Below the pieces are notes generated by a model. That model saw only the letters and a program-made list of their open reading frames with translations. It was not told the DNA's origin and made no database searches. A program made the translations under genes and the position numbers. From NCBI RefSeq assembly GCF_014696675.1, contig NZ_JACJQN010000009.1:124001-188000 (forward strand): a stretch of 64,000 nt of DNA, written 5' to 3'. This DNA is from Phormidium tenue FACHB-1052 (lineage in GTDB: Bacteria; Cyanobacteriota; Cyanobacteriia; Phormidesmidales; Phormidesmidaceae). Below are positions 35,443-64,000 of this stretch, in pieces. Each line of letters starts with the position of its first letter. The first letter of the stretch is position 1.

Positions 35443-35853
35443 TTATGGGCGCACGGTTTCGTAGCGAATCAGGCGACGAATGGTGTCTGGAGAAACATTC
35501 AGCCGCTGCGCCATTTCTGCCTCAATGGCCGATGGCGATCGCAGCGGTAGGTAAAAGTCGAGGGTGCGCGGCACCGGCTTCACCACAATCACCTCCACCC
35601 GAGTCGCCCGGCGATCGCCCCCAGCCGCCGCATCCTGACCCTCGTTGTCGATGACAGCGCGAATGCTGAGAATGCCTTCGTCCTGCGCCGCTCCACTGGT
35701 CGCCAAGGCCAGAGGTGCGATCGCCCGGTTTGCCACCCCCAGGTAGTGATGAGTCCAGCCGTAGCCAGCCAGCCAAAATGCGGCCCCCAACAGCCCTAGG
35801 GGTAGCCAGAACTCTAGGCCAGATCGGGTAAGAAGACGTTTGAGAGCAGGCAT
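35443..35853 (-). CDS. Membrane-anchored hypothetical protein
   Basis: The 136-residue protein starts at MPALKRLL and has one N-terminal transmembrane helix (about residues 13-35, FWLPLGLLGAAFWLAGYGW). A soluble domain follows, with predicted beta strands (VEVIVVKPVPRTLDFYL) and a C-terminal helical part ending RRLIRYETVRP. The open frame extends 32 codons upstream, but that part is low-complexity and lacks a ribosome-binding site. I do not recognise the family; the C-terminal helices loosely recall a winged-helix end. Confidence 0.65.
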   Translation of the reverse strand: MPALKRLLTRSGLEFWLPLGLLGAAFWLAGYGWTHHYLGVANRAIAPLALATSGAAQDEGILSIRAVIDNEGQDAAAGGDRRATRVEVIVVKPVPRTLDFYLPLRSPSAIEAEMAQRLNVSPDTIRRLIRYETVRP

Positions 35854-36234
35854 AGGCGATGGGAAAGGTGGGGAAGTGGGCAATGTAGGTGAGTCAGTGA
35901 TAGGGGTGGGAATGATTCTAAAGCTTAACGTCACCGGCATAACATCCACTCAGCTACCCATCCACTCCCTACTTGCCTTGGGTAAACTCACTAATGGTAA
36001 ACAGCAGGTTAAGCTAGCAAAGCGAGGGTTGCAGCCTTTAGAATAGCTGCTGCGTTATCCCAGTCAGGTGCTAACCCACAGCTAGCTAGAACACGCCCTT
36101 AGCCCCTGGGGCACCGACACCTGGATCGCACCTATCGACGGCAGGGGCGATCGTTTCACCATGGGCAAACTCTGTGCCTAAGTCCGTCTCATCCCCTCGA
36201 CTCACCTCCCATCCCCTCGTCTCCCCATATCTCC
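35854..36234. other. Divergent intergenic region upstream of histidine kinase
   Basis: These 381 bases separate the divergent hypothetical gene and the kinase. A short frame at 36086-36181 reads like a protein tail (ending [10 protein letters not shown] and a stop) but has no start and no recognisable family. The rest carries CATCCCCTCG-type short repeats just before the kinase. No Pho box was found. Confidence 0.4.
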
Positions 36235-37548
36235 ATGTTTACCCGCAGCCGCAAACATCTTACCCAGTGGCTCATGCTGACCATGGGCAGCGTCTTTGTG
36301 GTGTTTGGCGGACTGCTCTACGTAATCGAAGTCGAGCGGGAGCTAAACAAACTCGACCAGCAGCTCTACCGCGAAGCGGAGCTGATGATTAGCAGCGGCG
36401 GCGCTGACTCGTCGCCCAACCCAACCTACCCCGTGCAGTTTCAGATCAAAACGGTGCCGCTGCTGGGGGGCAGCACCCTGAGCATTACCTCAGATCTGGT
36501 CTACGCCCGCTGGTACGACACCAACAACCACCTGCTGATGTTTTTCGGGCCGCTGTCGGGCGATCAGCGCAACATTCAGCCCGGCTACAAAACGCTAATC
36601 TACGAGGGCCAACGCCTGCGCCAGATGACAGTGCCCATTGAGTCGGCGGGGCAAACCCTGGGCCACCTAGAACTGGCCACTACCCTGGTGCCAGTAGAAA
36701 CTGCCCTCAACCAAGTTCGGCTGGTTTTGAGCCTGGGGCTGCCGGTGGGGGTGGGCCTGATTGGGCTGCTGAGCTGGTGGTTCGCGGGCCAGGTGATGCG
36801 GCCCATTCAATTGTCATACCAGCGATTAGAACAATTTAGTGCCGATGCCAGCCACGAGCTGAGGACGCCAATGGCCACTATTCTCAGGCAGGCCGAGCTG
36901 GGGCTGATGACGGCTTCGCCCCAGGAGCAGGTGGCGCGGCTCCAGCATATTGCCGGGTTGGCCCAGTCAATGGGGCAGTTGATTAACAGTCTGCTGGTGC
37001 TGGTGACCGCCGATCGCTGGTCGGGCACCCAGCGGTGCAACCTCACCCTCTTGGTGAAAGAAATCGCCCGCGAGTATCAGACCCAGGCTAAGGCTAAGGG
37101 GCTTTGGTGGCGGCTAGAGCTGCCCCAGGCTCCCCTCTGGGTCAATGGAGACGCCAACTTGCTCCGGCAGGCGATCGCCAACCTGCTCAGCAATGCCTGC
37201 CGCTACACGGCTACCGGGGGAGAGGTTGCGCTTTCTCTCAGCCATCGCCTCGACCGGATTATGATTACGGTGCAAGACAGCGGCATCGGCATTCCGGCGG
37301 CTGATTTGCCCCGCGTGTTTGACCGCTTTTACCGGGTTGACAAGGCGCGATCGCGCGAGACTGGCGGCTTTGGGCTAGGGCTGGCGATCGCCCAGCAAAT
37401 CATTCAGGCGCACCAGGGCAAACTTACGGTAGTCAGCACCGAAAACCAGGGGTCAACCTTCACCATTACCCTGCCGTTACTCCTGTCTGCCAGTGACCGA
37501 GGGCAACCTGCCCCCCCGCAGACCTCGGGCTATAAGGCAGGGTGTTAG
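36235..37548 (+). CDS. Membrane sensor histidine kinase
   Basis: The 437-residue protein has two transmembrane helices (about residues 11-31 and 162-185) framing a roughly 130-residue periplasmic sensor. HisKA follows with the phospho-acceptor His in [13 protein letters not shown] (about residue 206). HATPase_c then has the N box [14 protein letters not shown]1 DSGIGIP, F box [13 protein letters not shown] and G2 GFGLGLAIA. No response regulator is next to it, so it is an orphan. It lies 104 bp upstream of a phosphate-binding protein gene in the same direction, which makes phosphate sensing a possibility; the sensor domain does not prove this. Confidence 0.92.
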
Positions 37549-37651
37549 ACCCAACACTGCATCAATTTCTCGTCGGCTAGATTACTCCGGCAAATGCCTA
37601 AAACCCTCGTTCTACCGTTGACCGTCAAAAACTGTCCGGAGTGTTGTTCCT

Positions 37652-38764
37652 ATGATTTTTAATCGCAAAGTAGGGTTAGCGGCGGCTTTGCCCATGGTTT
37701 TGGCGATCGCGGCCTGCGGTGGCGGGTCTTCTCCTACCGCCGAGACCAACCGCGATGCTCCCCCGGTGTCCGCTGGCGACGGCAGCGGCACCACGATCGC
37801 GATCAGCGGTGCCGGGGCAACTTTCCCCGCGCCGATTTTTCAGCGCTGGTTTGACGCCTATGGCCGGGAAGTTGACTTCGATGTGCAGGTGAGCTACCAG
37901 TCAGTGGGCAGTGGCGCTGGCCTAGAGCAATACATCGCTGGCACCGTAGACTTTGGCGCGTCTGAGGCTCCAATTACCGATTCCGAAAAGCACACTCAGG
38001 CTTTCGTTGAGGCCTTTGGTTATGCCCCCATTCAGGTGCCGATCACGGGCGGTTTGCTATCGTTCTCCTATAATCTGCCTGGGATTGGCGATCGCGAGCT
38101 ACGCCTTTCCCGCGAGGTCTACTGCGGCATCGTCACGGGCGAAATTACCCAGTGGAGCGACCCGGCGATCGCCGCGATCAACCCCGATCTAGAAATGCCT
38201 GACCTGCCCATCACCTGGGTTCACCGCTCCGACGGTTCAGGCACCACCTTTGTCTTTGTCAACCACATTGACACCGTCTGCGACGGCTGGGCAGGCGGCG
38301 TTGGCACCTCCGTTGACTGGCCCGTGGGCCTCGGCGACCAGGGCAATGAGGGGGTAGCCGCTACGATTCAGCAAACCGAAGGCGCGATTGGCTATCTGTC
38401 CTACGCCTATGCTGCCCTCAATGACATTGATTCAGCGCTGGTAGAAAACAACGCCGGTAACTACGTCGAGCCATCCCCTGAAACCGCAGGCAATGCCCTG
38501 CTCGAGGAAGCAATACCAGACGACTTTGCCCTGCTGGTGCCCGACCCCACTGGCGAAAACGCCTACCCCATCGTCGGTCTAACCTGGATCTTGATCTACA
38601 ACCGCTACGAAGACGCAGCCCAGTGGAACGCCATGCGCGACGTGTTTGAGTGGTCCCTCGGCCCCGAAGGCCGCGCCATTGCTGAAGAGTTGCTCTACGT
38701 GCCGCTGCCTGAGCCGCTGGTGGAGCGCATTCAAGAGGTGTTTGACACCGTCAACGCGGGCTAA
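37652..38764 (+). CDS. pstS: Phosphate ABC transporter substrate-binding lipoprotein PstS
   Basis: A signal peptide with lipobox LAIAAC (Cys near residue 22) is followed by the PstS core. SGAGATFPAPIFQRW, SYQSVGSGAGLEQY, DFGASEAPIT and HRSDGSGTT contain the phosphate-binding loops. The protein captures phosphate for the Pst permease. Unlike the pst genes at 61.8-64 kb, no Pho box is visible in its 100-bp upstream spacer, so it may depend on the kinase-gene promoter or be constitutive. No pstCAB follows here; the next gene is dnaB. Confidence 0.95.
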   Translation: MIFNRKVGLAAALPMVLAIAACGGGSSPTAETNRDAPPVSAGDGSGTTIAISGAGATFPAPIFQRWFDAYGREVDFDVQVSYQSVGSGAGLEQYIAGTVDFGASEAPITDSEKHTQAFVEAFGYAPIQVPITGGLLSFSYNLPGIGDRELRLSREVYCGIVTGEITQWSDPAIAAINPDLEMPDLPITWVHRSDGSGTTFVFVNHIDTVCDGWAGGVGTSVDWPVGLGDQGNEGVAATIQQTEGAIGYLSYAYAALNDIDSALVENNAGNYVEPSPETAGNALLEEAIPDDFALLVPDPTGENAYPIVGLTWILIYNRYEDAAQWNAMRDVFEWSLGPEGRAIAEELLYVPLPEPLVERIQEVFDTVNAG

Positions 38765-38833: not shown

Positions 38834-41800
38834 ATGGTTCAGAATCTCAAGTTTGATGCGGTCAGCGATCGCCTGCCACCCCAAAATATTGAGGCCGAAG
38901 AGGCCATTCTGGGCGGTATTTTGCTTGACCCCGAAGCCCTCAGCCGGGTGATGGAGATTCTCACCCCCGACGCCTTTTACATCGGTGCCCACCGCGATAT
39001 TTATAAAGGAGCGCTGGCCCTCCACGCCAAGGGGCAGCCCGCCGATCTGATGACCATTGCCGTCTGGCTAAAGGACAACGGCAAGCTGGAGCAGGTGGGC
39101 GGCCAAACCCGCCTGGCCCAGCTGGTCGATCGCACCATCAGTGCCGCCAACATCGACCAGTACGCCACCCTGGTGATGGATAAATACACCCGTCGCCTGC
39201 TGATTCAGACCGGGGGCGAGATTTCTCAGCTGGGCTACGACACGACGCTGCCCATCGAGAATGTGATGGATCAGTCGGAACAGCGGCTGTTTGGCATCAC
39301 CCAGTCGCGACCCCAGGGAGGGCTCACCTCCACGTCGGATATTTTGATTGAGACGTTTTCAGAGATCGAGCAGCGATCGCTCGGCGTCGTCCTCCCCGGC
39401 ATCCCCTGCGGCTTCTATGACCTGGATGCCATGACCCAGGGTTTTCAGCGTTCTGACCTAATTATTGCCGCTGCCCGTCCGTCAATGGGCAAGTGCTTGA
39501 GTGCAGACGCAGAGATCGTGGTGGCCGACGGCAGCCTCAAAACTATCGGCGAAATTTACCAGGAGAAATCTGCTTCGCTGCTCACCCTGGGGGATAACTG
39601 GCGCTTTCGGCTCACTCAGCCCAGCGCCTACGTAGACGACGGTCACAAGCCTGTGTTTCGGGTGAGAACGCGATCGGGGCGAGCGATCGAGACGACCCTG
39701 AGCCATCCCTACCTGACCATTCAAGGCTGGCGGCCCCTGGCGGAGCTGGCGGTAGGCCAAAAAATTGCCGTACCCAGAACGCTGCCAGTGTTTGGCACCG
39801 AAACCCTGCCTAAGCACCAGATCAAACTGCTGGCTTATCTAATTGGCGATGGCTGTCTGACAGGCACCTCTCCCCAGTTCACCAACGAAAATTCTGCTAT
39901 TCAAGCCGACTTCACCGCTGCTGCCCTAAATTTTCTAGGGGTGAAGGTGCGCAAGGAAACCTCCCAAGGCACCCGCACGCCAACCTTTTACGTCACCTCA
40001 GATAGCGAAGACTTGCAGCAGGCCCGTCAAATCTTTGGTCAACGACTCAAGGAATTGATCAAGGCCAGTGGCCAACCCGCCCGTAGGTTGGCCCAAACTC
40101 TAGAGGTTTCTCCCGGCTTGGTGACACTATGGCAGCAGGGCGTCTGTGCGCCCAGCCCAGATATCTTTGAGCGCCTGTGCCAACTACTCCAGGTTCTCCC
40201 CGAGACCCTGGCCCCCGGTGGCCTCGCGACCATCCGCTGGATGAGTCAAAACAATCTCACGCTTTGGCTGCAAAAACTGGGCCTTTGGGGCAAATCGGCT
40301 CACCAGAAAACCATTCCAGCGACGGTGTTTCGGCTAGAGCGATCGCATCTCGCCCTCTTTCTAAATCGCTTATTCTCCACCGATGGCTGGGCTACCGTCC
40401 TCGCCTCTGGGCAGGCGCAACTGGGCTTTGCCAGCGTCAGCGAAACCCTGGCCCGCCAGGTGCAACACCTGCTGCTGCGGTTTGGCATTTTGGCTCAGCT
40501 CAGGTTGCGATCGGTGAAGTATCAGGGTGGCCATCGCCCCGCTTGGCAGCTCGACATCACCGATGCCCCCTCGATCAAGACGTTCTTAAGCGACATTGGC
40601 ATCTTTGGCAAAGAAGCGGCCTTAGATAAGGTTAAGACTGCCTTGACCCACCGCCGTTACCAAACCAACCGCGATCTAATTCCGGTAGAAATTTGGCACA
40701 CCCTCCATGCCGCTAAGGGGGCTGAGTCTTGGGTGTCCCTGGCCACCCGCGCCGGATTCCAAAGTACCAGCAATATTCACGCTGGCAAACGCGCTCCCAC
40801 CCGCGATCGCCTCTTTGCCCTGGCCACCGCCCTAGAGCATCTGGAACTTCAGCACATCGCCACTAGCGATGTCTACTGGGACGAAATTGTGGCGATCGAG
40901 CCCCAGGGGATAAAACTGGTCTACGACCTCACCATCCCCGACACCCACAACTTTGTCGCCAACGATATCTGCGTCCACAACACCAGCTTTGTGCTAAATA
41001 TCGCCCGCAACATTGCAGCTCTACAGAAGCTTCCTGTCGCGATCTATAGTCTGGAAATGTCGAAGGTGCAGCTGGTCTATCGCCTGCTCTCTAGCGAAGT
41101 GGAGATGGAAAGCAGCCGCCTGCGCACCGGACGCATTGCCCAAAACGAGTGGGAAAAACTGGGCCATGCCATCAGCATTCTCTCCCAGATGCCGATTTTC
41201 ATTGACGACACTCCCAGCATTTCGGTGACTGAAATTCGTTCTCGCTGCCGCCGCCTTCAGGCCGAGCAGGGCGGTGCCCTGGGGCTGATTTTGATCGACT
41301 ACCTCCAGCTGATGGAGGGCGGCGGTGATAACCGGGTGCAAGAATTGTCGAAGATGACGCGATCGCTCAAGGGTCTCGCCCGCGAACTCAACGTACCGAT
41401 CATCGCTCTGTCTCAGCTCAGTCGGGGCGTCGAATCGCGCACCAATAAGCGCCCGATGATGAGCGACTTGCGGGAGTGCGTCACTGGCGATACCCTAGTT
41501 GTCCTTGCCAACGGTCGACGAGTACCGATTCAAGATCTGGTAGGTAGCACTCCAGACGTAGTGAGCTTGGATGAACAGGGCAAGTTAACTCAGGCTCAGG
41601 CCGATTTAGTTTGGCAGGTGGGTACTCGACCAATTTATGAGTTGACCACAGCCAGCGGACGCAAAATTCGTACGACTGAGAAGCACCGACTATATACCCT
41701 CGACGGCTGGCAACGGTTAGAGCAGTTGAAGCAGGGGAGCCGAATCGCTGTGGCTCAGCATTTGCCCGAACCCGCTGTTGCCGAGATTTGGCCTGAGTTA

Positions 41801-42919
41801 AGGCTGGCATTACTAGGGCAGCTCATTGGCGATGGTAGCTACCTCAAGGGGCAGCCCCTTCGATACACCACCGGCTCTGAAGAGAATAGCCAGATCGTCA
41901 AATTAGCTGCCGAGCAAGAATTTAGCTGTGAGGTGAAGCGCTACAAAGGCAGAGGTCAGTGGCATCAGCTTTTGATCTCTGGTAATGGCAATCGCTGGCA
42001 CCCTGCCGGGGTAAATCGTTGGTTACGGCAGCTTGGCATCTTTAACCAACCTTCTCGGGAGAAACGCATTCCTGCCGAAGTGTTTCAGCTCTCCAATCAG
42101 CAGGTAGGTCTGCTCCTCAAACACCTATGGGCGACTGATGGCTGTATCTCGGTACGCAAGGGCAGAGGCGGAGATGCCGTATTTTTCTCCACCAGCAGTG
42201 AGGGCTTGGCCCGCGATGTTGCGGCTCTACTTCTAAGACTCGGCATTTGGGCCTCTGTGTTTTGGCAGCCAAGTCAGTGTTTTACCGTCAACGTTCAGGG
42301 TAGCGTCAACCAGCTTAGGTTTTTGACTCGGGTTGGGGCTTTCGGCCCTAGGGTAGAACCCGCTGCCGCTCTACGGCTGAAACTTGAGAGCATCATCTCA
42401 AATCCCAACCGAGACACCTTGCCCAGAGAAGTTTTTGATCGAGTCAAGGCTGATATGAGAGCCCAGGGCATTAGTCAGCGCCAAATGGCAACCCTGCGAG
42501 GCACTTCCTATGGCGGGACAGCACACTTCAAATTTGCTCCTTCGCGGCAGACACTCCTCAGCTACGCAGAGATTTTGGACAATGAATCCCTCAAAGAAAT
42601 TGCCGCAGCAGACATCTTCTGGGATGAAGTGCTTTCTATTGAGCCTGCGGGGGAAGAACCCGTGTATGACCTGACTGTACCGGGGCCTGCCTCCTGGCTG
42701 GCAGACGGCATTGTGTCTCACAACTCAGGTGCGATCGAGCAGGACGCCGACTTGATCATGATGCTCTACCGCGAAGAGTACTACGACCCCGATACGCCCG
42801 ATCGCGGCATTGCCGAGATCATCATTACCAAGCACCGCAACGGCCCGACTGGCACCGTCAAACTGCTGTTCGAGCCGCAGTTTACTCGCTTCCGCAACCT
42901 GGCCACCCCAGGGATGTAG
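38834..42919 (+). CDS. dnaB: Replicative DNA helicase DnaB interrupted by two inteins
   Basis: The 1361-codon gene contains a normal cyanobacterial DnaB (about 449 residues after splicing) split into three exteins. Extein 1 (residues 1-220) has the N-terminal domain and ends in the Walker A motif ARPSMGK. Extein 2 (717-881) starts [10 protein letters not shown] and contains the Walker B region [10 protein letters not shown]. Extein 3 (1298-1361) starts [10 protein letters not shown]. The first intein separates the Lys and Thr of the P-loop GKT, so helicase activity requires splicing. DnaB unwinds DNA at the fork. It lies downstream of pstS and upstream of a dienelactone hydrolase, and appears monocistronic. 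Confidence 0.97.
39494..40981 (+). other. Intein 1 of DnaB (496 aa, with homing endonuclease and HTH insert)
   Basis: The intein begins with Cys ([13 protein letters not shown], block A) directly after the P-loop Lys and ends VHN before Thr+1. Block B is [12 protein letters not shown], and block F/G is [13 protein letters not shown]...ICVHN. The terminal His-Asn and Cys1/Thr+1 are all present, so splicing is expected to work. Two LAGLIDADG-type motifs ([11 protein letters not shown] and [11 protein letters not shown]) mark a DOD homing endonuclease. Between them lies an XRE-like helix-turn-helix (about 40037-40204). Insertion is inside Walker A, a recognised DnaB intein site. Confidence 0.95.
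41477..42724 (+). other. Intein 2 of DnaB (416 aa, LAGLIDADG type)
   Basis: The intein starts [13 protein letters not shown] (block A, Cys1) after SDLRE and ends VSHN before Ser+1 (SGAIEQDAD). Block B is [13 protein letters not shown] and the F block is [16 protein letters not shown]. Endonuclease motifs are [11 protein letters not shown] and [11 protein letters not shown]. All splice-junction residues are intact. The insertion point is the one used by several other DnaB inteins near the conserved SGxIEQD motif. It is independent of intein 1 in sequence, and its base composition looks somewhat less GC-rich. Confidence 0.94.
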
Positions 42920-56859: not shown

Positions 56860-57333
56860 GGGAGGAAATGTATTTTCAACTAAATGTTACGTACTTTTAA
56901 GAACCGAAAACCGGTTTGCCACAGAATCTTAAGGATTCTGTCTAGAGAATGCCCATTTTTGCGCCAAGTCATAGCCTACTCACCTCAGTGGTTGATCCTT
57001 TGGCCTGAGATAGTACTTGTTAGTAGGTACTCCTCTCGCTGAGACCGCATTCGTCTACTTCAATGGGCCGTGCCGGTCTAGAAGCCAATGATTGGCCTAC
57101 GGTGCGATGGCCTTGGGGAAACGGCCCAGCACTTGCGAAGAGATTGCGCCAGCGATCGTTGCCTGCTCAACAGCACGCCTGGCCTGTAACGAAGGTCAGC
57201 ACTACTACCCATGATGCGGTTCAGATGGAGCAAACCTGGGTGGAGCCTCACGTCATTTAGCAGAGTCTGCTCTCGGTTTTGCGGTTAGGCACTTTTTCAC
57301 TGCTGGGGTTTGCCTTTTCACAATTAAACTGTC
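56860..57333. other. Intergenic region upstream of cytM
   Basis: This is a 474-base spacer. It contains two small palindromes (AAACCGGTTT near 56911 and a CAGAATC/GATTCTG stem near 56930-56940) that could be operators for cytM. A 65-codon plus-strand frame (57063-57260) has no recognisable features. Nothing else is visible. Confidence 0.45.
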
Positions 57334-57730
57334 ATGACCTCGTCTAGTGAAAGTACTCAGGGTTTTCAAGCCTCTCAGAGTTTTCTAGAGGCTCATTTTC
57401 ACCCCACGTTCATTGTGAAATGTATCGTGCCGGAGCTGAAGGCAGAGGCTTTGTTTCAACAGTGGCATAACCGACTAGCAGAGGCAGCGAGCTAGTTTGA
57501 GGGTCATACTCGCGTCGATAGTGATCAATAGTTTGATTCCTTCATCAATTTTGACCTGAGCGGTGATGCCAAGGGTGAGGCAGATCTTGAGCTTTTGGCT
57601 ACGCCCGGTCTACCGACTGACGGCATTGCAAACTGACCTAATTGGCGCTGGCCTGGTGTTTGCTGCTCTTGGTTTCATGGCCAACGTGTTCACCTATCTA
57701 ACCTGGGAAAGCGGCTTAGGAAAAGAGTGA
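57334..57730 (+). pseudogene. Remnant of an ABM-domain membrane protein gene
   Basis: An ATG at 57334 opens a 53-codon frame whose second half (TFIVKCIVPELKAEALFQQW) looks like the start of an antibiotic-biosynthesis-monooxygenase (ABM, ferredoxin-like) fold. It ends in TAG, and FEGHTRVD continues after it. In another frame about 100 bases on, RQILSFWLRPVYRL... and GLVFAALGFMANVF reads as a membrane tail ending with TGA at 57728-57730. The middle of the protein is missing. I read this as a gene collapsed by deletion, frameshift and nonsense mutation; the family assignment is tentative. Confidence 0.55.
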
Positions 57731-57810
57731 TAAACAACCGAATTGGCCAATTGCTTTAAAGCAAGTTCCACAAATGGTTACACTACTCGCAGAAAAAAGC
57801 GGGTGGAGCT

Positions 57811-58698
57811 ATGGAGTCGAGCTTTTTAACGGCGGTTTTTTTGCCCCTGGCCTTGTTTGCGGTCATGCTGGGCATGGGGTTGGGGCTGAGAATTGATGAT
57901 TTTACAAGGGTGTTGGTGTACCCCAAAGCAGTGGTGGTGGGGCTGCTGGCTCAGCTGGTAATGCTCCCGATTTTGGGGTTCGCGCTGGCGTCGATTTTTC
58001 CGCTGACTCCCGAGCTGGCGGTCGGGGTGATGATTTTAGCGGCCTGCCCTGGAGGGCCAACCTCAAACCTGATTACCTATCTGGCGCGGGGAAATGTGGC
58101 TCTGTCGATTACCCTGACGGCGATGAGTAGCTTAATTACGGTGTTTACCATTCCCCTGGTGGTGAACCTGGCGATGGGGGCGTTTTTAGGCGAAGCTACT
58201 ACTCTGAGTCTGCCGGTGGGGGCAACGGTGATTCAGATCGCCGTGATTACGCTGATTCCGGTAGCGATGGGCATGGCGCTGCACCACTACCGGCCAGGGT
58301 TCGCCGCCCAGGTGGAGCGGAGTGTTAAGTGGCTTTCATTGGGGTTGCTGGGGCTGATTATTGCGGGCCTGCTGGTACAGCAGCGGGCGAATGTGGTGGG
58401 CTTTTTTGCCCAGGTGGGCCTGGTGACGCTGGCGTTGAATCTGGCGGCGATGGCCTTGGGCTATGTCATTGCTGTAGCAGCTAAGCTCGATCGCCCCAGC
58501 GCCACGGCGATTACGGTGGAGGTAGGCATTCAGAATGGCACGCTGGCGATCGCCATTGCCAGCGCCCCCACCCTGCTCAACCAGCCAGACCTAGCGATTC
58601 CGGCGGCGATCTATAGCCTGCTGATGTTTGCCACGGGCGGGGCTTTTGCCGGGTGGGCCACCCGGCAAAGCTCAAGGGAACAAACTCCCGTTGGTTAA
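57811..58698 (+). CDS. Bile acid:sodium symporter (SBF/BASS) family protein
   Basis: The 295-residue, roughly nine-helix membrane protein carries the SBF family motifs MILAACPGGPTSNLITYLARGN and VEVGIQNGTLAIAIA, the two crossover regions that bind Na+ and substrate. BASS members in cyanobacteria import bicarbonate, pyruvate or other carboxylates, so a carboxylate or bicarbonate role is possible but not demonstrated. A strong terminator follows the stop codon. Confidence 0.9.
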   Translation: MESSFLTAVFLPLALFAVMLGMGLGLRIDDFTRVLVYPKAVVVGLLAQLVMLPILGFALASIFPLTPELAVGVMILAACPGGPTSNLITYLARGNVALSITLTAMSSLITVFTIPLVVNLAMGAFLGEATTLSLPVGATVIQIAVITLIPVAMGMALHHYRPGFAAQVERSVKWLSLGLLGLIIAGLLVQQRANVVGFFAQVGLVTLALNLAAMALGYVIAVAAKLDRPSATAITVEVGIQNGTLAIAIASAPTLLNQPDLAIPAAIYSLLMFATGGAFAGWATRQSSREQTPVG

Positions 58699-58718
58699 AG
58701 ATCGTTTGCCTAGCACAA

Positions 58719-58750
58719 TGCCCTGGGCCGCTATGGCCCAGGGCATTTTT
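58719..58750 (+). terminator. Intrinsic terminator of the SBF transporter gene
   Basis: The perfect 11-bp stem TGCCCTGGGCC/GGCCCAGGGCA has a five-base loop and is followed by five Ts. It is a strong rho-independent terminator about 20 bp after the stop codon. Confidence 0.9.
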
Positions 58751-58776
58751 AGTACAAATCAGACGACCTGATTGAC

Positions 58777-59145
58777 CTAAGCGCCAACCAGACCAACAGA
58801 ACTGAGGATGAAGTTGAGAATTGAACTGATGATGGCCAGGGCGATCGCGCCAAGAATCGCGCTCCAAATCCCGTAGCGCAGCCGGAAGCCCTCGATCAGC
58901 CAGGCGGCCAGGCCAAACACAATGATCGCCCCAATCAGCGGAATCAGACCCAGACTGATGACAGCGAACCCAGTGCGCAGGGCGCTGGGAAAGAAACTCC
59001 AGAAACCGTTAAACGCACCGATAATCGCGCCCCCCAGCAGCGCCTTGACGGGGCTATCAATTTCGACTCCAATGGGCGGAATCTTAGAAATAATCAGCAG
59101 GCTAATAGCCAGTACGACGACACTAATTAAAAATCCAATCAGCAT
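58777..59145 (-). CDS. Small membrane protein, phage-holin-like family
   Basis: The 122-residue protein is hydrophobic, with four putative transmembrane helices (starting at about residues 3, 36, 62 and 93). It resembles the phage-holin-superfamily IV/DUF-type small membrane proteins common in cyanobacterial genomes (SFFPSALRTGFAVISLG). No phage genes surround it, so a host membrane role is likely. It is convergent with the SBF transporter. Confidence 0.72.
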   Translation of the reverse strand: MLIGFLISVVVLAISLLIISKIPPIGVEIDSPVKALLGGAIIGAFNGFWSFFPSALRTGFAVISLGLIPLIGAIIVFGLAAWLIEGFRLRYGIWSAILGAIALAIISSILNFILSSVGLVGA

Positions 59146-59398
59146 TGGTATTTCTCCTCACACAGGTAAACGATGGGGTTTGTCAGAACAGGAAAATTAG
59201 CTCAGAAGGGCGGCTGGCCCATGCACCTGAAATTATCGAGCATAGAATAGCAATTGCTACAGTTTTTCGCTTTATCTCGGGGAAATTGAGGTTAGGTTGG
59301 CTCTGGCGCGGTCTTTTACGCTTTAGGGCGCTTGATCTGAAGCTATCTATACCATGAACCTCTAGAGGACAATTGATTTGCCCCTGGTCTGGAGTTGG

Positions 59399-59929
59399 TT
59401 AAACTGCCAGCCCCAGGGCCGTGCCCATTTTGTTGAGCACATCGCTTTCTTTATCACTGATGCGGCTGGAGCCGATGCCTAAAATGCCGCCCTCCCGATG
59501 GGCCTCGGCAACCTTGGTGGCTACGCCAATTAGCCATTGCTTAAGTTCGCTGGCTTGCACCCCAGTAACTTTGGTGTCTAGAATGGCCGCGACCGTTTGC
59601 AGATGGGCGATCGCATAGTCGCGCCCATCTTTAGCGCTTTTGAAGGTTTGCATCAGGCCCAGCAGTTCAAACTGTTTTTTAAGCAGCAGCTGCTCCCCAG
59701 CTAGCAGGTCGGCGGCATCCAGTTCGGCAATGCTGCTGATCAGGGTTGGGGCCAGGTCGCCCACGGCATCGCTTTGCTGAATTGCGTCGGCGACAATGGC
59801 GACCCCAGACTTAACCTCCTGCAAAAACAAAATCGGGTCAACCCGATCGGCCAGGCAAACACCCATGACCGCCTGCATTGGAGCCTGAAGCAGCGCTGAC
59901 CATTCCTCGGCAGTAAAGTTTTCTCGCAT
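59399..59929 (-). CDS. Hypothetical helical protein
   Basis: The 176-residue protein is strongly helical: WSALLQAPMQAVMGVCLADRV, VKSGVAIVADAIQQ, LLLKKQFELLGLMQTF, then GVATKVAEAHREGGILGIGS. It shows no transmembrane segment or signal peptide. I do not recognise the family. The C-terminal GGILGIGSSRISDKE is a flexible loop. Confidence 0.7.
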   Translation of the reverse strand: MRENFTAEEWSALLQAPMQAVMGVCLADRVDPILFLQEVKSGVAIVADAIQQSDAVGDLAPTLISSIAELDAADLLAGEQLLLKKQFELLGLMQTFKSAKDGRDYAIAHLQTVAAILDTKVTGVQASELKQWLIGVATKVAEAHREGGILGIGSSRISDKESDVLNKMGTALGLAV

Positions 59930-60032
59930 AAGAGCGCCCTGTCTTATTGCCTAAAGCTATGCCTAACCATATCGACCAAATATATGAAAACTCTAACGGC
60001 TTCCTACGTTACATCTCTGCTGAGGTTCGCCC

Positions 60033-60902
60033 ATGGCCCGTGCTACATCTGCCCTGCTTCAGGTACATGCGTCAGTGTTTTTGTTTGGGCTGGCGGGGTT
60101 GTTTGGCAAGTTTTTGGCGCTGCCCGCCACGGTGATTGTGCTAGGACGGACTGGGTTTGCCGCGTTGGCCTTGGGGTTGGCACTCGCCTTGGAGCAGCGG
60201 TCGGCTCGCCTGGGCACCGGCAAAGATGGGGTGGGGATGGTCCTGCTGGGGGCGCTGCTGGCCTTTCACTGGGTAAGCTTTTTTCTCAGCATTCAGCTAG
60301 CGACGGTAGCAGTGGGGCTGCTAACATTTTCGAGCTTTCCGGTGTTTGTGACGGTGCTAGAGCCGCTGCTGTTTAAGACGACCTGGCGCTGGCGAGATGG
60401 GGCGATCGCGGCTTTAGTCGTGCTCGGCGTTGCCCTGGTAATTCCTGAATACCGGCTGGGATCGGCGACGACCCTGGGAGCAGTTTGGGGACTGCTGTCA
60501 GGGCTGTCGTTCGCGCTGCTGCAATTGCTCAATAAAGGCTACCGGCAGCGCTACTCGGCAGTGGCGATCGCGTTTTATCAAAACCTGTTTGCCTGCCTCA
60601 GCCTGCTGGTGGTCACGCCGGTTCCGAGTCTGTCTCTCACCCCTGAAGAAGTGGGGCTACTGCTGGTGCTGGGGGTGCTATGTACGGCTCTGGCCCACAC
60701 CTTATTTATCGAAAGCTTGGCGGTGCTGCGTACCCAAACCGCCAGCGTGATCAGCAGCTTAGAGACGGTTTATGGCATTGCCCTGGCGGCACTGCTGCTG
60801 GGCGAACGGCCCAACCTCCGTACCCTGGTGGGCGGGGCGGTTGTGTTAGGTACGACGCTCTGGGCGAGCTGGCCCGATCAATCGTCGTCAGAATCGGGCT
60901 AA
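60033..60902 (+). CDS. EamA/DMT family transporter
   Basis: The 289-residue, ten-helix protein consists of two EamA repeats (first from [20 protein letters not shown], second from [25 protein letters not shown]). DMT proteins export amino acids, sugars or other small molecules. No substrate is deducible. It is directly followed (16 bp) by a truncated arsenite permease. Confidence 0.9.
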
Positions 60903-60918
60903 CCCAGGCCGCAAAACG

Positions 60919-61260
60919 GTGAATGAACTCTCGCTAATTGCGGTGCCCTTGTTCATTCAAACCAACTTTATTTTTCTGATCACCTACGTGGCCGGGCAAA
61001 AGCTGGGGTTGGCCTACGAAGATGCGGCCCCGGCGGCGCTGATTGGGGCGAGTAACCACTTTGAGGTGGCGATCGCCACGGCAGTCACCCTCTTTGGCCT
61101 CAACTCCGGGGCGGCCCTCGCCACCGTCGTGGGGGTGCTGATCGAGGTGCCCGTCATGCTCATGCTGGTGGAATTTTGCAAGCGCACCGCCTTCTGGTTT
61201 CCCCGCCATCCCGAGACAGCCACCCTGCGGGATCCGCGCTGCATTCAGCCTAGCGAATAG
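60919..61260 (+). pseudogene. Truncated ACR3 arsenite permease (C-terminal third)
   Basis: The 113-codon frame encodes the last two helices of an ACR3-type arsenical-resistance permease. It has [21 protein letters not shown], the conserved [20 protein letters not shown] and [22 protein letters not shown]. The first two-thirds of the protein (about 230-250 residues, including most helices) are missing. A GTG serves as an apparent start. With so few helices it cannot transport by itself. It probably arose from a deletion that joined it to the DMT gene. Confidence 0.85.
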
Positions 61261-61844
61261 TTGCCCCTGCGAGTCTGGTTAGAAGACTTCCTGGGGAGTT
61301 GCAAGCTCACAGGGGGGCCTCCACCACTCATAGACGGTTCTCTAAACCACCGGCTTAAGCATAGGCATGAGGCCACCCACAACGGCCCTTTCTAGTCAAG
61401 CCCAGCAAGCTTTTCACCAATCGGGCGGCCATCTCCGGACACTTTCTTAACCTCAGATTAATCTATAAAAAATCTTTTATTAATGTTCGCTTGACCTTCT
61501 CTTGAAGCAGATACCTGATTATTATACCGGGCATCAAATGCACGTTGGCGAATGGTGCATTTGATTATATCTAAAACAGCTAAAGGTTATTTACAGTAAT
61601 CTAAACGCGGTTACCAAGCCCATTTCATCTATAGATAAAGGTTGCCTTTTGCGGCATCCCATCGGTGATACAGTGTCAACAGACCCCCTTGAAAACGCAC
61701 ATCTTGTCTATCACAAAGCCCATTGGTGCGTTTGACAATTAGACCTTAAAAGCAATTGACAAAGGTTCTAACTATCTGGGTCAATGTAGCTGAAAATTTG
61801 CCGAATAAGTTCGTTAACGCGTTGGATTTGGAGTGAGAAGAATC
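61261..61844. other. Regulatory region upstream of pst operon
   Basis: This 584-base intergenic region is AT-richer than its surroundings. It contains the six-repeat Pho box and a -10-like TATTAT (61520-61525) about 11 bp after the last repeat, followed by a long leader of roughly 320 nt before pstS. No ORF is supported. Confidence 0.7.
61446..61508 (+). promoter_or_regulatory. Pho box: six direct 8-bp repeats at 11-bp period
   Basis: Repeats start at 61446 (CTTAACCT), 61457 (ATTAATCT), 61468 (AAAAATCT), 61479 (ATTAATGT), 61490 (CTTGACCT) and 61501 (CTTGAAGC), each followed by a 3-bp spacer. This is the arrangement bound by the cyanobacterial response regulator SphR, with core PyTTAAPyPyT. 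The last repeats are degenerate. A TATTAT box follows after 11 bp, placing the repeats where a -35 element would be, as expected for activated transcription under phosphate starvation. Confidence 0.9.
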
Positions 61845-62891
61845 ATGGTTTTGAGTAAGAAAGTTTTGCGTGTAGGCTACTCCTCCGCATTGGTAGCAAT
61901 GATGGCCAGTCTGGCCGCTTGCGGCGGTGGCTCTCAAACCGCAACTCCCGACGCTGGCACCACCGAAACCGCTGCTGGCTCTGAGCTATCGGGAACTGTT
62001 TTGGTAGACGGTTCCAGCACCGTTTTCCCCATCTCTGAAGCCATGGCTGAGGAATTTGGCACAGCTAACCCCGGCGTAGCGGTCACCGTTGGCGTATCGG
62101 GTACCGGCGGTGGCTTTAAGAAGTTTTGCGCGGGCGAAACCGACATTACTGGCGCGTCTCGCCCCATCAGTCAGGAAGAAATTGACCTCTGTGCTCAGGC
62201 CGGCATTGAGTATATCGAGCTGCCCATTGCTCTTGATGGTCTCACGGTGGTGGTCAACCCCGAGAATGATTTTGCGGAATGTCTCACTACTGACGAACTG
62301 CTAACCATATGGGAACCCGAGGCCCAGGACAATATCACTAACTGGAACCAGGTTCGCGCTGACTTCCCCGATGCGCCCCTCGGCCTCTATGGTGCAGGCA
62401 CCGACTCGGGTACCTACGACTTCTTCATGGAAGCGATCGGTGCCGATGGCGAGAGCCGGGGCGACTACACCGCCAGCGAAGACGACAACGTGATTGTGCA
62501 GGGTGTCAGTAGCGACACCAACGGCCTTGGCTTCTTTGGTCTGGCCTATTTCATCGAAAACCAAGATAAGTTGAAGGCTGTGGCTATCGACAGCGGCAAC
62601 GGCACTTGTGTAGAGCCCAGCGCTGAAACCGTTGCCGACGGCACCTACGTGCCCCTCTCTCGACCCGAGTTTATCTACGTCAAGCTAGATAAGGCAGATG
62701 ACCCTGCTGTGGCAGCCTTTGTCAACTTCTACATCTCCCCCGACAATGCAGGCTTGGTAGATGAAGTTGGCTACGTCAGCGTACCCTCAGAGATCAATAC
62801 CAAGGTCATTTCTCGCTTCGAGAACAAGACCACTGGCACCGTGTTTGAAGGCGGCTCCCCCATCGGCGTTAAGCTGGACGAAGTGCTCTAG
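61845..62891 (+). CDS. pstS: Phosphate-binding protein, PstS/SphX type
   Basis: The lipoprotein signal ends LAAC (Cys near residue 26 from ATG 61845). A Gly/Ala/Thr linker leads to the PBP fold with [38 protein letters not shown] and [15 protein letters not shown]. The Ser/Thr/Gly loops bind phosphate. It belongs to the SphX-like branch, distinct from the copy at 37652. It is the first gene after the Pho box and lies 105 bp before pstC, so its high expression is probably decoupled from pstC by the hairpin at 62953-62983. The GTG at 61833 is a weaker start. Confidence 0.94.
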
Positions 62892-62952
62892 GCCGATCGC
62901 TTAAACGCCCTCTGGCTCAGCCTTTTCTGAGGTTTAGCCGATCGAGTTCCTG

Positions 62953-62983
62953 GGGGCCAGCGTTGACTGGCCCCTTATTTTTT
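62953..62983 (+). terminator. Hairpin attenuator/terminator between pstS and pstC
   Basis: GGGGCCAG pairs with CTGGCCCC (8 bp) across a six-base loop, followed by a T-rich tract (TTATTTTTTT). It lies in the pstS-pstC gap. A leaky terminator here would give more PstS than permease, as in other pst operons. Confidence 0.8.
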
Positions 62984-62996
62984 AGAGTTCTGTATC

Positions 62997-63932
62997 ATGA
63001 CGACAAACTCTTTGCCGCCCGAGCCAAACAACCTCTGGCAACCCAACCGAGGGCTCAACAAATGGGTCGAACGTGCCTTTATCTGGCTATTTGGCCTGTT
63101 TGCCCTGATCTCCGTCGCTACCACCTTCGGCATTGTCCTCTCACTGCTGTTTGAGACCGTAGAGTTCTTCAAAGACGTTCCCCTGTGGAACTTCTTCACC
63201 GATCGACAGTGGACTCCTCTGTTTTCGAACCCGCAGTTCGGCATCATGGTGCTGCTGAGCGCCACATTTTTAACCTCGCTGATTGCCTTACTTGTAGCGG
63301 TGCCCCTGGGCCTGCTCTCGGCCATCTACCTCAGCGAATATGCCTCCCCTAAACTGCGCAAGTGGCTCAAGCCCGCCCTAGAGATTTTGGCAGGGGTGCC
63401 CACGGTGGTCTACGGCTACTTCGCGTTGCTCCTGGTTACGCCCTTTCTCCAGACGTTTATCCCTCAGCTGGGCGGGTTCAATGCACTGAGTGCAGGCATC
63501 GTCATGGGCATTGCCATTACGCCGCTGATTGCCTCCCTGAGCGAAGACGCCATCTATGCTGTGCCCAGCGCTCTTCGGGATGGCTCCTACGCATTAGGTC
63601 TCACCAAGCGAGAGACGATTTTTGGTGTGGTGCTGCCCGCCGCCCTTTCGGGCATTGTGGCCTCGGTGATTTTGGCCGTTTCTCGGGCCGTAGGCGAAAC
63701 CATGATTGTTGCTCTAGCGGCGGGGCAAAACCCTCGCCTGGGGCTCAACCCCTTTGTGCCGGTCATGACCATGACCGCCTACATTGTGCAGGTCAGCCTG
63801 GGCGACACCCCAGCGGGCTCGATCGCCTTCAAATCCATCTTTGCGGTGGGGATGACGCTGTTTTTGCTCACCCTGATATTCAACATCATTAGCTTCTGGT
63901 TTGTGCGCAAGTTTCGGGAGACCTACGAATGA
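62997..63932 (+). CDS. pstC: Phosphate ABC transporter permease PstC
   Basis: The 311-residue membrane protein has six or more transmembrane helices and the BPD_transp_1 motif EDAIYAVPSALRDGSYALG, plus EILAGVPTVVYGYFA and ALAAGQNP typical of PstC. It forms the channel with PstA. Its TGA overlaps the start of pstA (ATGA), so the two are translationally coupled. Confidence 0.95.
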   Translation: MTTNSLPPEPNNLWQPNRGLNKWVERAFIWLFGLFALISVATTFGIVLSLLFETVEFFKDVPLWNFFTDRQWTPLFSNPQFGIMVLLSATFLTSLIALLVAVPLGLLSAIYLSEYASPKLRKWLKPALEILAGVPTVVYGYFALLLVTPFLQTFIPQLGGFNALSAGIVMGIAITPLIASLSEDAIYAVPSALRDGSYALGLTKRETIFGVVLPAALSGIVASVILAVSRAVGETMIVALAAGQNPRLGLNPFVPVMTMTAYIVQVSLGDTPAGSIAFKSIFAVGMTLFLLTLIFNIISFWFVRKFRETYE

Positions 63933-64000
63933 CGCCCCTATCGTCTCAAACAAAACCTCTCGATGCCGGTTGGGATATTGAACAGAAACAGGTTCTCCAT
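63929..64000 (+). CDS. pstA: Phosphate ABC transporter permease PstA, 5' end only
   Basis: The ATG overlaps the pstC stop as ATGA. Only 24 codons (starting MTPLSSQTKPLDAG) are visible before the window ends. The position in the pst operon supports PstA; the visible residues are the cytosolic N terminus, which is poorly conserved. Confidence 0.8.
   Translation, partial: MTPLSSQTKPLDAGWDIEQKQVLH

Follow-up and report, generated by a model that had tools for sequence, protein, structure and literature searches.

The segment at 61446-61522 of the window (the whole 64,000-nucleotide stretch of Phormidium tenue FACHB-1052 DNA analyzed here) is very probably, with a probability of about 0.86, a phosphate-starvation promoter of the pstSCAB operon, with six half-sites arranged as three tandem dimer sites for a response regulator of the PhoB/SphR type. 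An initial annotation had claimed six direct repeats in exact 11-bp phase, and six 8-mers were indeed recovered at exactly that spacing between 61446 and 61508, while the pst operon that it placed downstream proved to be pstS-pstC-pstA-pstB (Table 1). Its reading of the repeats as an SphR-type element is likewise supported by the sequence, which points to a cyanobacterial Pho operator ahead of pstSCAB.

Table 1. Features of the putative pst promoter and operon (window positions, except where a locus is named).
Feature	Position	Strand	Remarks
Pho box 1	61446..61453	+	CTTAACCT; matrix score 11.4, the maximum possible; TTAA in 12/12 arrays
Pho box 2	61457..61464	+	ATTAATCT; score 9.6; TTAA in 12/12 arrays
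Pho box 3, degenerate	61468..61475	+	AAAAATCT; score -0.9; AAAA, not TTAA
Pho box 4	61479..61486	+	ATTAATGT; score 6.9; TTAA in 12/12 arrays
Pho box 5	61490..61497	+	CTTGACCT; score 7.5; core TTGA in the window
Pho box 6, degenerate, promoter-proximal	61501..61508	+	CTTGAAGC; score 1.5; core TTGA in the window
Most likely -10, GATTAT	61517..61522	+	8 bp after box 6; NANNAT conserved in 12/12 arrays
Alternative -10, TATTAT	61520..61525	+	hexamer of the initial annotation; 11 bp after box 6
Predicted 5' leader, ~316 nt	61529..61844	+	from the presumed start site to the ATG at 61845
pstS, TIGR02136 kind, 348 aa	61845..62891	+	TIGR02136, 296.6 bits (cut-off 206.6)
pstC	62997..63932	+	TIGR02138, 271 bits (cut-off 196.45)
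pstA	L038:3929-4861		past the window end; named from reading of the ORF
pstB	L038:4902-5708		past the window end; named from reading of the ORF

The Pho box array and its conservation

The six repeats are separated, in order, by the linkers cag, ata, ttt, tcg and tct. They were scored with a matrix derived from published cyanobacterial Pho boxes, namely 27 of the 30 three-box rows in Table 1 of PMC1906773; the three PCC 7942 rows left out represent the same sites as PCC 6301 rows. By eye, boxes 1 to 6 depart from the published consensus YTTAAYYW at 0, 1, 3, 2, 1 and 4 positions, respectively, and only boxes 1, 2 and 4 keep the TTAA core. Scores and mismatches together indicate that four of the six repeats are good and two degenerate. 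With six units in phase, the array exceeds the minimum of three tandem YTTAAYYW-like 8-mers with 3-bp linkers expected of a cyanobacterial Pho box, and it lies upstream of phosphate-acquisition genes whose products exceed the cut-offs of TIGR02136 and TIGR02138.

An ordinary four-box site, in which boxes 1, 2, 4 and 5 alone are bound, boxes 3 and 6 serve as in-register spacers and six is an over-count, is unlikely but not negligible. The low scores of boxes 3 and 6 speak for it, as does box 3, which lacks the TTAA core in all 12 arrays compared and reads AAAAATCT, GCCAAGAT or GTCAATCC. However, box 6 stands at exactly 8 bp from the -10, and in the three divergent arrays it carries TTAA (L069, L070 and G014, as ATTAACAC, ATTAATAC and ATTAATGC, respectively) and in two of the three it outscores its partner, box 5; the latter is weaker in these arrays (scores 4.6, 0.0 and -2.9, in the same order). 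Moreover, the weaker ancillary units of the Streptomyces pitH2 operator are protected at higher PhoP levels (PMC7866108). On the preferred reading, that of three dimer sites, fewer than six half-sites may nevertheless be filled, given the state of box 3 in all arrays and the TTGA cores of boxes 5 and 6 in the window.

The six-unit array was found without insertions or deletions in 12 of the 13 examined orthologues of at least 70% identity, several of which are near-identical (the window, L062-L067, L069, L070, G007, G010 and G014); the thirteenth, L068, has a two-box promoter in its place. Within the genus, a DNA search recovered the block from 7 of 26 genomes, that of the window included, and from the same 7 among 63 of the order, and a protein search of 16 same-genus genomes gave 4 with a PstS orthologue of at least 70% identity. 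The nearest named records of PstS come from Nodosilinea, Leptolyngbya, Tildeniella and Phormidium, and the host is a cyanobacterium of the Nodosilinea type. Scores of the 12 arrays ranged from 31.2 to 36.1, except for a weak 16.5 in G014. Mean conservation was 0.92-1.00 at the TTAA positions, 0.70-0.80 in the linkers and 0.47 in the upstream flank, values that derive from 12 sequences, many near-identical, and take no account of kinship. The three divergent arrays depart from the window in most of their linkers but have TTAA in common at boxes 1, 2, 4 and 6, and retention of the core while linkers change is the pattern that would be expected of phased binding sites.

These data also bear on the view that the AT-rich block is the site of another regulator or an UP-element, with an incidental 11-bp phasing, which is improbable. 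The linkers are also well conserved in the nearest relatives, and an A/T-rich near-palindrome (ATAAAA-AATC-TTTTAT) occupies the middle of the array, both as this view would have it, but L067 (same genome as L052) disrupts the palindrome and retains the boxes, the divergent arrays alter most linkers and keep the phased TTAA, and position and gene content fit Pho control.

Matched against itself at lags of 5 to 33, segment 61446-61508 gave peaks at 11 (0.58), 22 (0.49) and 33 (0.40), and values of 0.09-0.35 at other lags. The array was the best chain at every length from two to six boxes on both strands of the 64-kb window, with a six-box score of 36.1, and its five-box chain scored 34.5 at 11-bp spacing against a best of 8.1 at the other spacings from 8 to 15 bp. 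After dinucleotide shuffling of a 92-bp segment, the scores observed for chains of two to six boxes were reached 9, 152, 9, 1 and 1 times, respectively, per 20,000 shuffles; for the 584-bp intergenic region the corresponding numbers were 0, 21, 1, 0 and 0 per 5,000. A three-box pattern with up to three mismatches occurred at three sites in the genome itself, the array included, and at none in the reversed control. That the periodicity is a chance property of AT-rich DNA is hardly credible: the matrix is not fully specific in such DNA, an unrelated Halomonas stretch (L074) scoring 32.0 against 36.1 for the array, and three-box chains are not very rare among the shuffles, but the six-box score was reached by one shuffle at most, the array is conserved without gaps in 12 genomes, and it stands in phase with the -10.

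The opposite strand of the array scores as well (16.8 in the window, 28.4 in L070), since TTAA is a palindrome, and the direction of the array therefore rests on the -10 element and the gene.

The -10 element, leader and regulators

The hexamer TATTAT, given as the -10 in the initial annotation, is present after the repeats, but GATTAT, 3 bp upstream, is more likely to be the -10 element. Hexamers at the latter position fit NANNAT in all 12 arrays (GATTAT, GATCAT, GACAAT, TAGCAT), whereas the hexamer at 61520 reads CATTAT, TATTGT, TATTGC, AATGTC, CATACC, CATAAC or CATGAC in the 11 relatives. Further evidence came from a survey of the class, in which 126 genomes were searched, 50 matched, and 29 loci were examined besides the window, from 30 among the matches listed. 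A box pair of score at least 14 lay within 350 bp in 26 of the 29, and these formed the basis of the count (L129, L131 and L149 had no such pair). Among these 26 promoters of other genera, several of them close mutual relatives (7 of the 29 belong to the window's own family), TANNNT stood 8 bp downstream of the best box pair in 19, one unit further (8+11, or 19 bp) in 4, and at the 11-bp offset in none. L141 has TANNNT at 3 and 18 bp as well as at 8 bp, and L132, L138 and L139 showed none at any offset from 2 to 19.

Conservation of NANNAT in 12/12 arrays and the 8-bp spacing elsewhere together place the -10 at 61517-61522. Lack of conservation and an offset found in 0/26 promoters make TATTAT the second choice, although it keeps some likelihood, being nearer to TATAAT in the genome itself. 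The distance from the last box to the -10 is fixed (8 bp in 12/12 arrays and 19/26 comparison promoters). This simple geometric rule of last box, 8 bp and -10, obeyed by 19/26 orthologous promoters, offers a means of locating Pho promoters and of correcting -10 calls. As for the strong expression predicted in the initial annotation, GATTAT is a weak -10, and the number of boxes gives no measure of expression strength. A scan of 61261-61860 for the sigma-70 consensus returned 0 promoters against 0.8 expected, which fits an activator-dependent promoter and by itself is no evidence.

The proposed mechanism is as follows. The six half-sites would form three tandem dimer sites (1-2, 3-4 and 5-6) for the PhoB/SphR-type response regulator, and in the window none of these presumed sites is without a good half-site. 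When phosphate is scarce, the regulator, probably SphR, would in its phosphorylated form occupy the half-sites head to tail. Boxes 5-6, 8 bp before the weak -10, would stand in for a -35 element, and regulator bound there would recruit RNA polymerase, while boxes 1-4 would lengthen the regulator array upstream. The importance of the TTAA cores for binding to three tandem repeats has been shown in Synechocystis by electrophoretic mobility shift assays (PMC11126600).

The array begins 399 bp before the ATG, and the distance from the -10 to the ATG is 308-323 nt in 9 of the 12 array genomes and 526-550 in the three divergent ones. In an Rfam search of 57000-64000, two matches fell short of the gathering score, and both lay outside the leader. 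Near the predicted 5' end, at 61533-61565, lies an inverted repeat with perfect 11-bp arms (folding z -3.15); since it is kept only in part, with 8 bp of the arms in L065 and none seen on reading the other relatives, it was not counted as a general part of the leader. Three ORFs of 25-28 codons were also noted in the leader, as was an extended -10-like motif (TGNTAMAGT) at 61666-61674, TGATACAGT, which occurs in 9/12 leaders, is absent from L069, L070 and G014, and is possibly a second, phosphate-independent promoter. On the far side of the array, a 113-aa ORF (60919-61260) matches only residues 244-327 of 327 of an ACR3 arsenite transporter model, below its cut-off, and this neighbor of the phosphate operon is probably a gene remnant.

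Among possible regulators, the genome encodes PhoU above its cut-off. The PhoB and PhoR models gave many matches in the genome, none above cut-off, and these models pass in only 2 and 1, respectively, of 14 control genomes. From a reading of sequence motifs, we take C5:188948-189643 to be a candidate SphR and C1:668226-669314 a candidate SphS. A PDB search with the former gave MtrA as best match and PhoB lower down, so that assignment of SphR by this route was not decisive.

Promoter evolution and the second pstS gene

In the 19 promoters with a -10 at 8 bp, between 84 and 253 bp separate the box pair from the protein match (84-146 bp in 15 of the 19; distances run to the start of the match rather than to a verified start codon), and one of these promoters is from a sister genus, G046 (same locus as L068). 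Outside the clade, then, a proximal pair is found 84-253 bp from the gene in 19 of the 29 orthologues examined. Within 200 bp, no proximal pair was found in 9 of the 12 array genomes (scores 1.1-5.8, the window's best being 5.8); the best pair there scores 4.8 in L070, 9.2 in L069 and 10.5 in G014, against 18.5 in L068. With proximal pairs in the outgroups and none in 9/12 array genomes, the distal six-box promoter looks clade-specific. It looks like a lineage-specific extension, the direction of change being read from outgroups rather than from a tree. We suggest, tentatively, that the Nodosilinea clade lost an ancestral two-box promoter and gained the distal six-box one, with a leader of ~300-550 nt, and that a stack of three dimer sites, combining strong half-sites with weak ones, might give a sharper or later response to low phosphate than the two-box form. 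If true, a natural series exists for testing operator length against the threshold of a two-component response; should operator length tune the response, a comparison is ready-made in the orthologous promoters with two and six boxes.

The window contains another pstS, of the TIGR00975 kind, at 37652, of which the initial annotation stated that it has no Pho box. This holds directly upstream, where the best pair scores 5.5 in 37400-37660 and 1.5 in 37549-37651, but a conserved site of two to three boxes occupies minus-strand positions 35981-36013, past the neighboring kinase gene, and phased TTAA arrays precede the orthologous pstS in G011 and G012. The site is a Pho-like pair, CTTAACCT-gct-GTTTACCA, its 5' end 64 nt before an ORF of unknown family (35443-35949), with no TANNNT at 8 bp. 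It is kept in G007 and G010 (L173 and L174), with a better third box and a three-box score of 22.7, against 14.7 in the window. The kinase is a histidine kinase (best model RppB, below cut-off) encoded directly before the TIGR00975-type pstS in 36235-38764, and the pair is conserved in 4/4 genomes examined (74-95% and 79-91% identity). In G011 and G012 the stretch between the two genes is longer and holds the phased arrays. Read away from pstS, the best four-box chains of these arrays reach 30.2 and 22.4, and read toward the gene 19.9 and 17.0; despite the better scores away from pstS, their direction is ambiguous because of the TTAA palindrome. The ORF that follows this pstS (38834-42919) reads by eye as a DnaB helicase with long intein-like internal insertions.

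Elsewhere in the genome, a two-box pattern with up to three mismatches gave 16 matches against 5 in the reversed control, and a regulon based on it was dropped as too noisy. One of the 16, in L166, is a Pho-like pair that has TAAAAT at 8 bp and stops 35 bp short of an ORF that by eye resembles a polyphosphate kinase gene.

Comparison with known Pho operators

Jin et al. reportedly described three tandem Pho boxes in 2021. The array resembles the phoA, sphX and pstS2 promoters of Synechocystis sp. PCC 6803, in which 8-bp YTTAAYYW repeats with 3-bp linkers precede phosphate-acquisition genes, and where the SphR-dependent boxes overlap the -35 or sit upstream of it (PMC13226834 and PMC1906773). 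The initial annotation considered six repeats to be more than the usual three to four. The number does exceed the two to four motifs of Synechocystis Pho promoters (PMC13226834), two of the six being degenerate, but more than four is not unique, five occurring in L146 and L151 and six in Streptomyces pitH2. Su et al. scanned for three-box sites (PMC1906773).

The two-box pstS promoters of other cyanobacterial genera share the arrangement of a pair with a -10 placed 8 bp downstream (19/26), but the pair lies 84-253 bp from the match, whereas the window has six boxes at 399 bp from the ATG and no proximal pair. Closer in number of units are L146 and L151, both Synechococcus elongatus-like, which have five phased boxes with TAGGAT 8 bp after the last; unlike the window array, theirs lie about 1,430-1,450 bp before the matched gene, at a place where G027 has a second pstS-like gene, and the five-box arrays of both probably belong to sphX. 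In L151 the three proximal boxes are identical to the PCC 6301/7942 sphX rows of Table 1 of PMC1906773, and since the matrix was built from rows of this table, neither L146 nor L151 is independent of it.

Outside cyanobacteria, a close likeness is seen in the PhoP operator of Streptomyces coelicolor pitH2, whose protected region of 64 nt is made up of 11-nt direct repeats, four of them core units and two weaker (PMC7866108). It differs from the window array in consensus, regulator and gene. The pho promoters of E. coli usually contain one or two boxes. The PhoB pho box of that species likewise consists of tandem 11-nt half-sites at a fixed distance upstream of the -10, with a different consensus (PMC1906773 and PMC4415409).

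In the mostly open-access literature searched, no wording for five- or six-Pho-box or six-SphR arrays was found, nor any joint treatment of Nodosilinea pstS and phosphate. Multi-unit Pho and PhoP operators are known elsewhere, so the array is a long example of a familiar type of operator. Judged by its sequence, it is a real, conserved and longer-than-usual form of a known switch and not a new kind of switch, and it stands as one of the longer cyanobacterial Pho operators on record, with an origin from the two-box form suggested.
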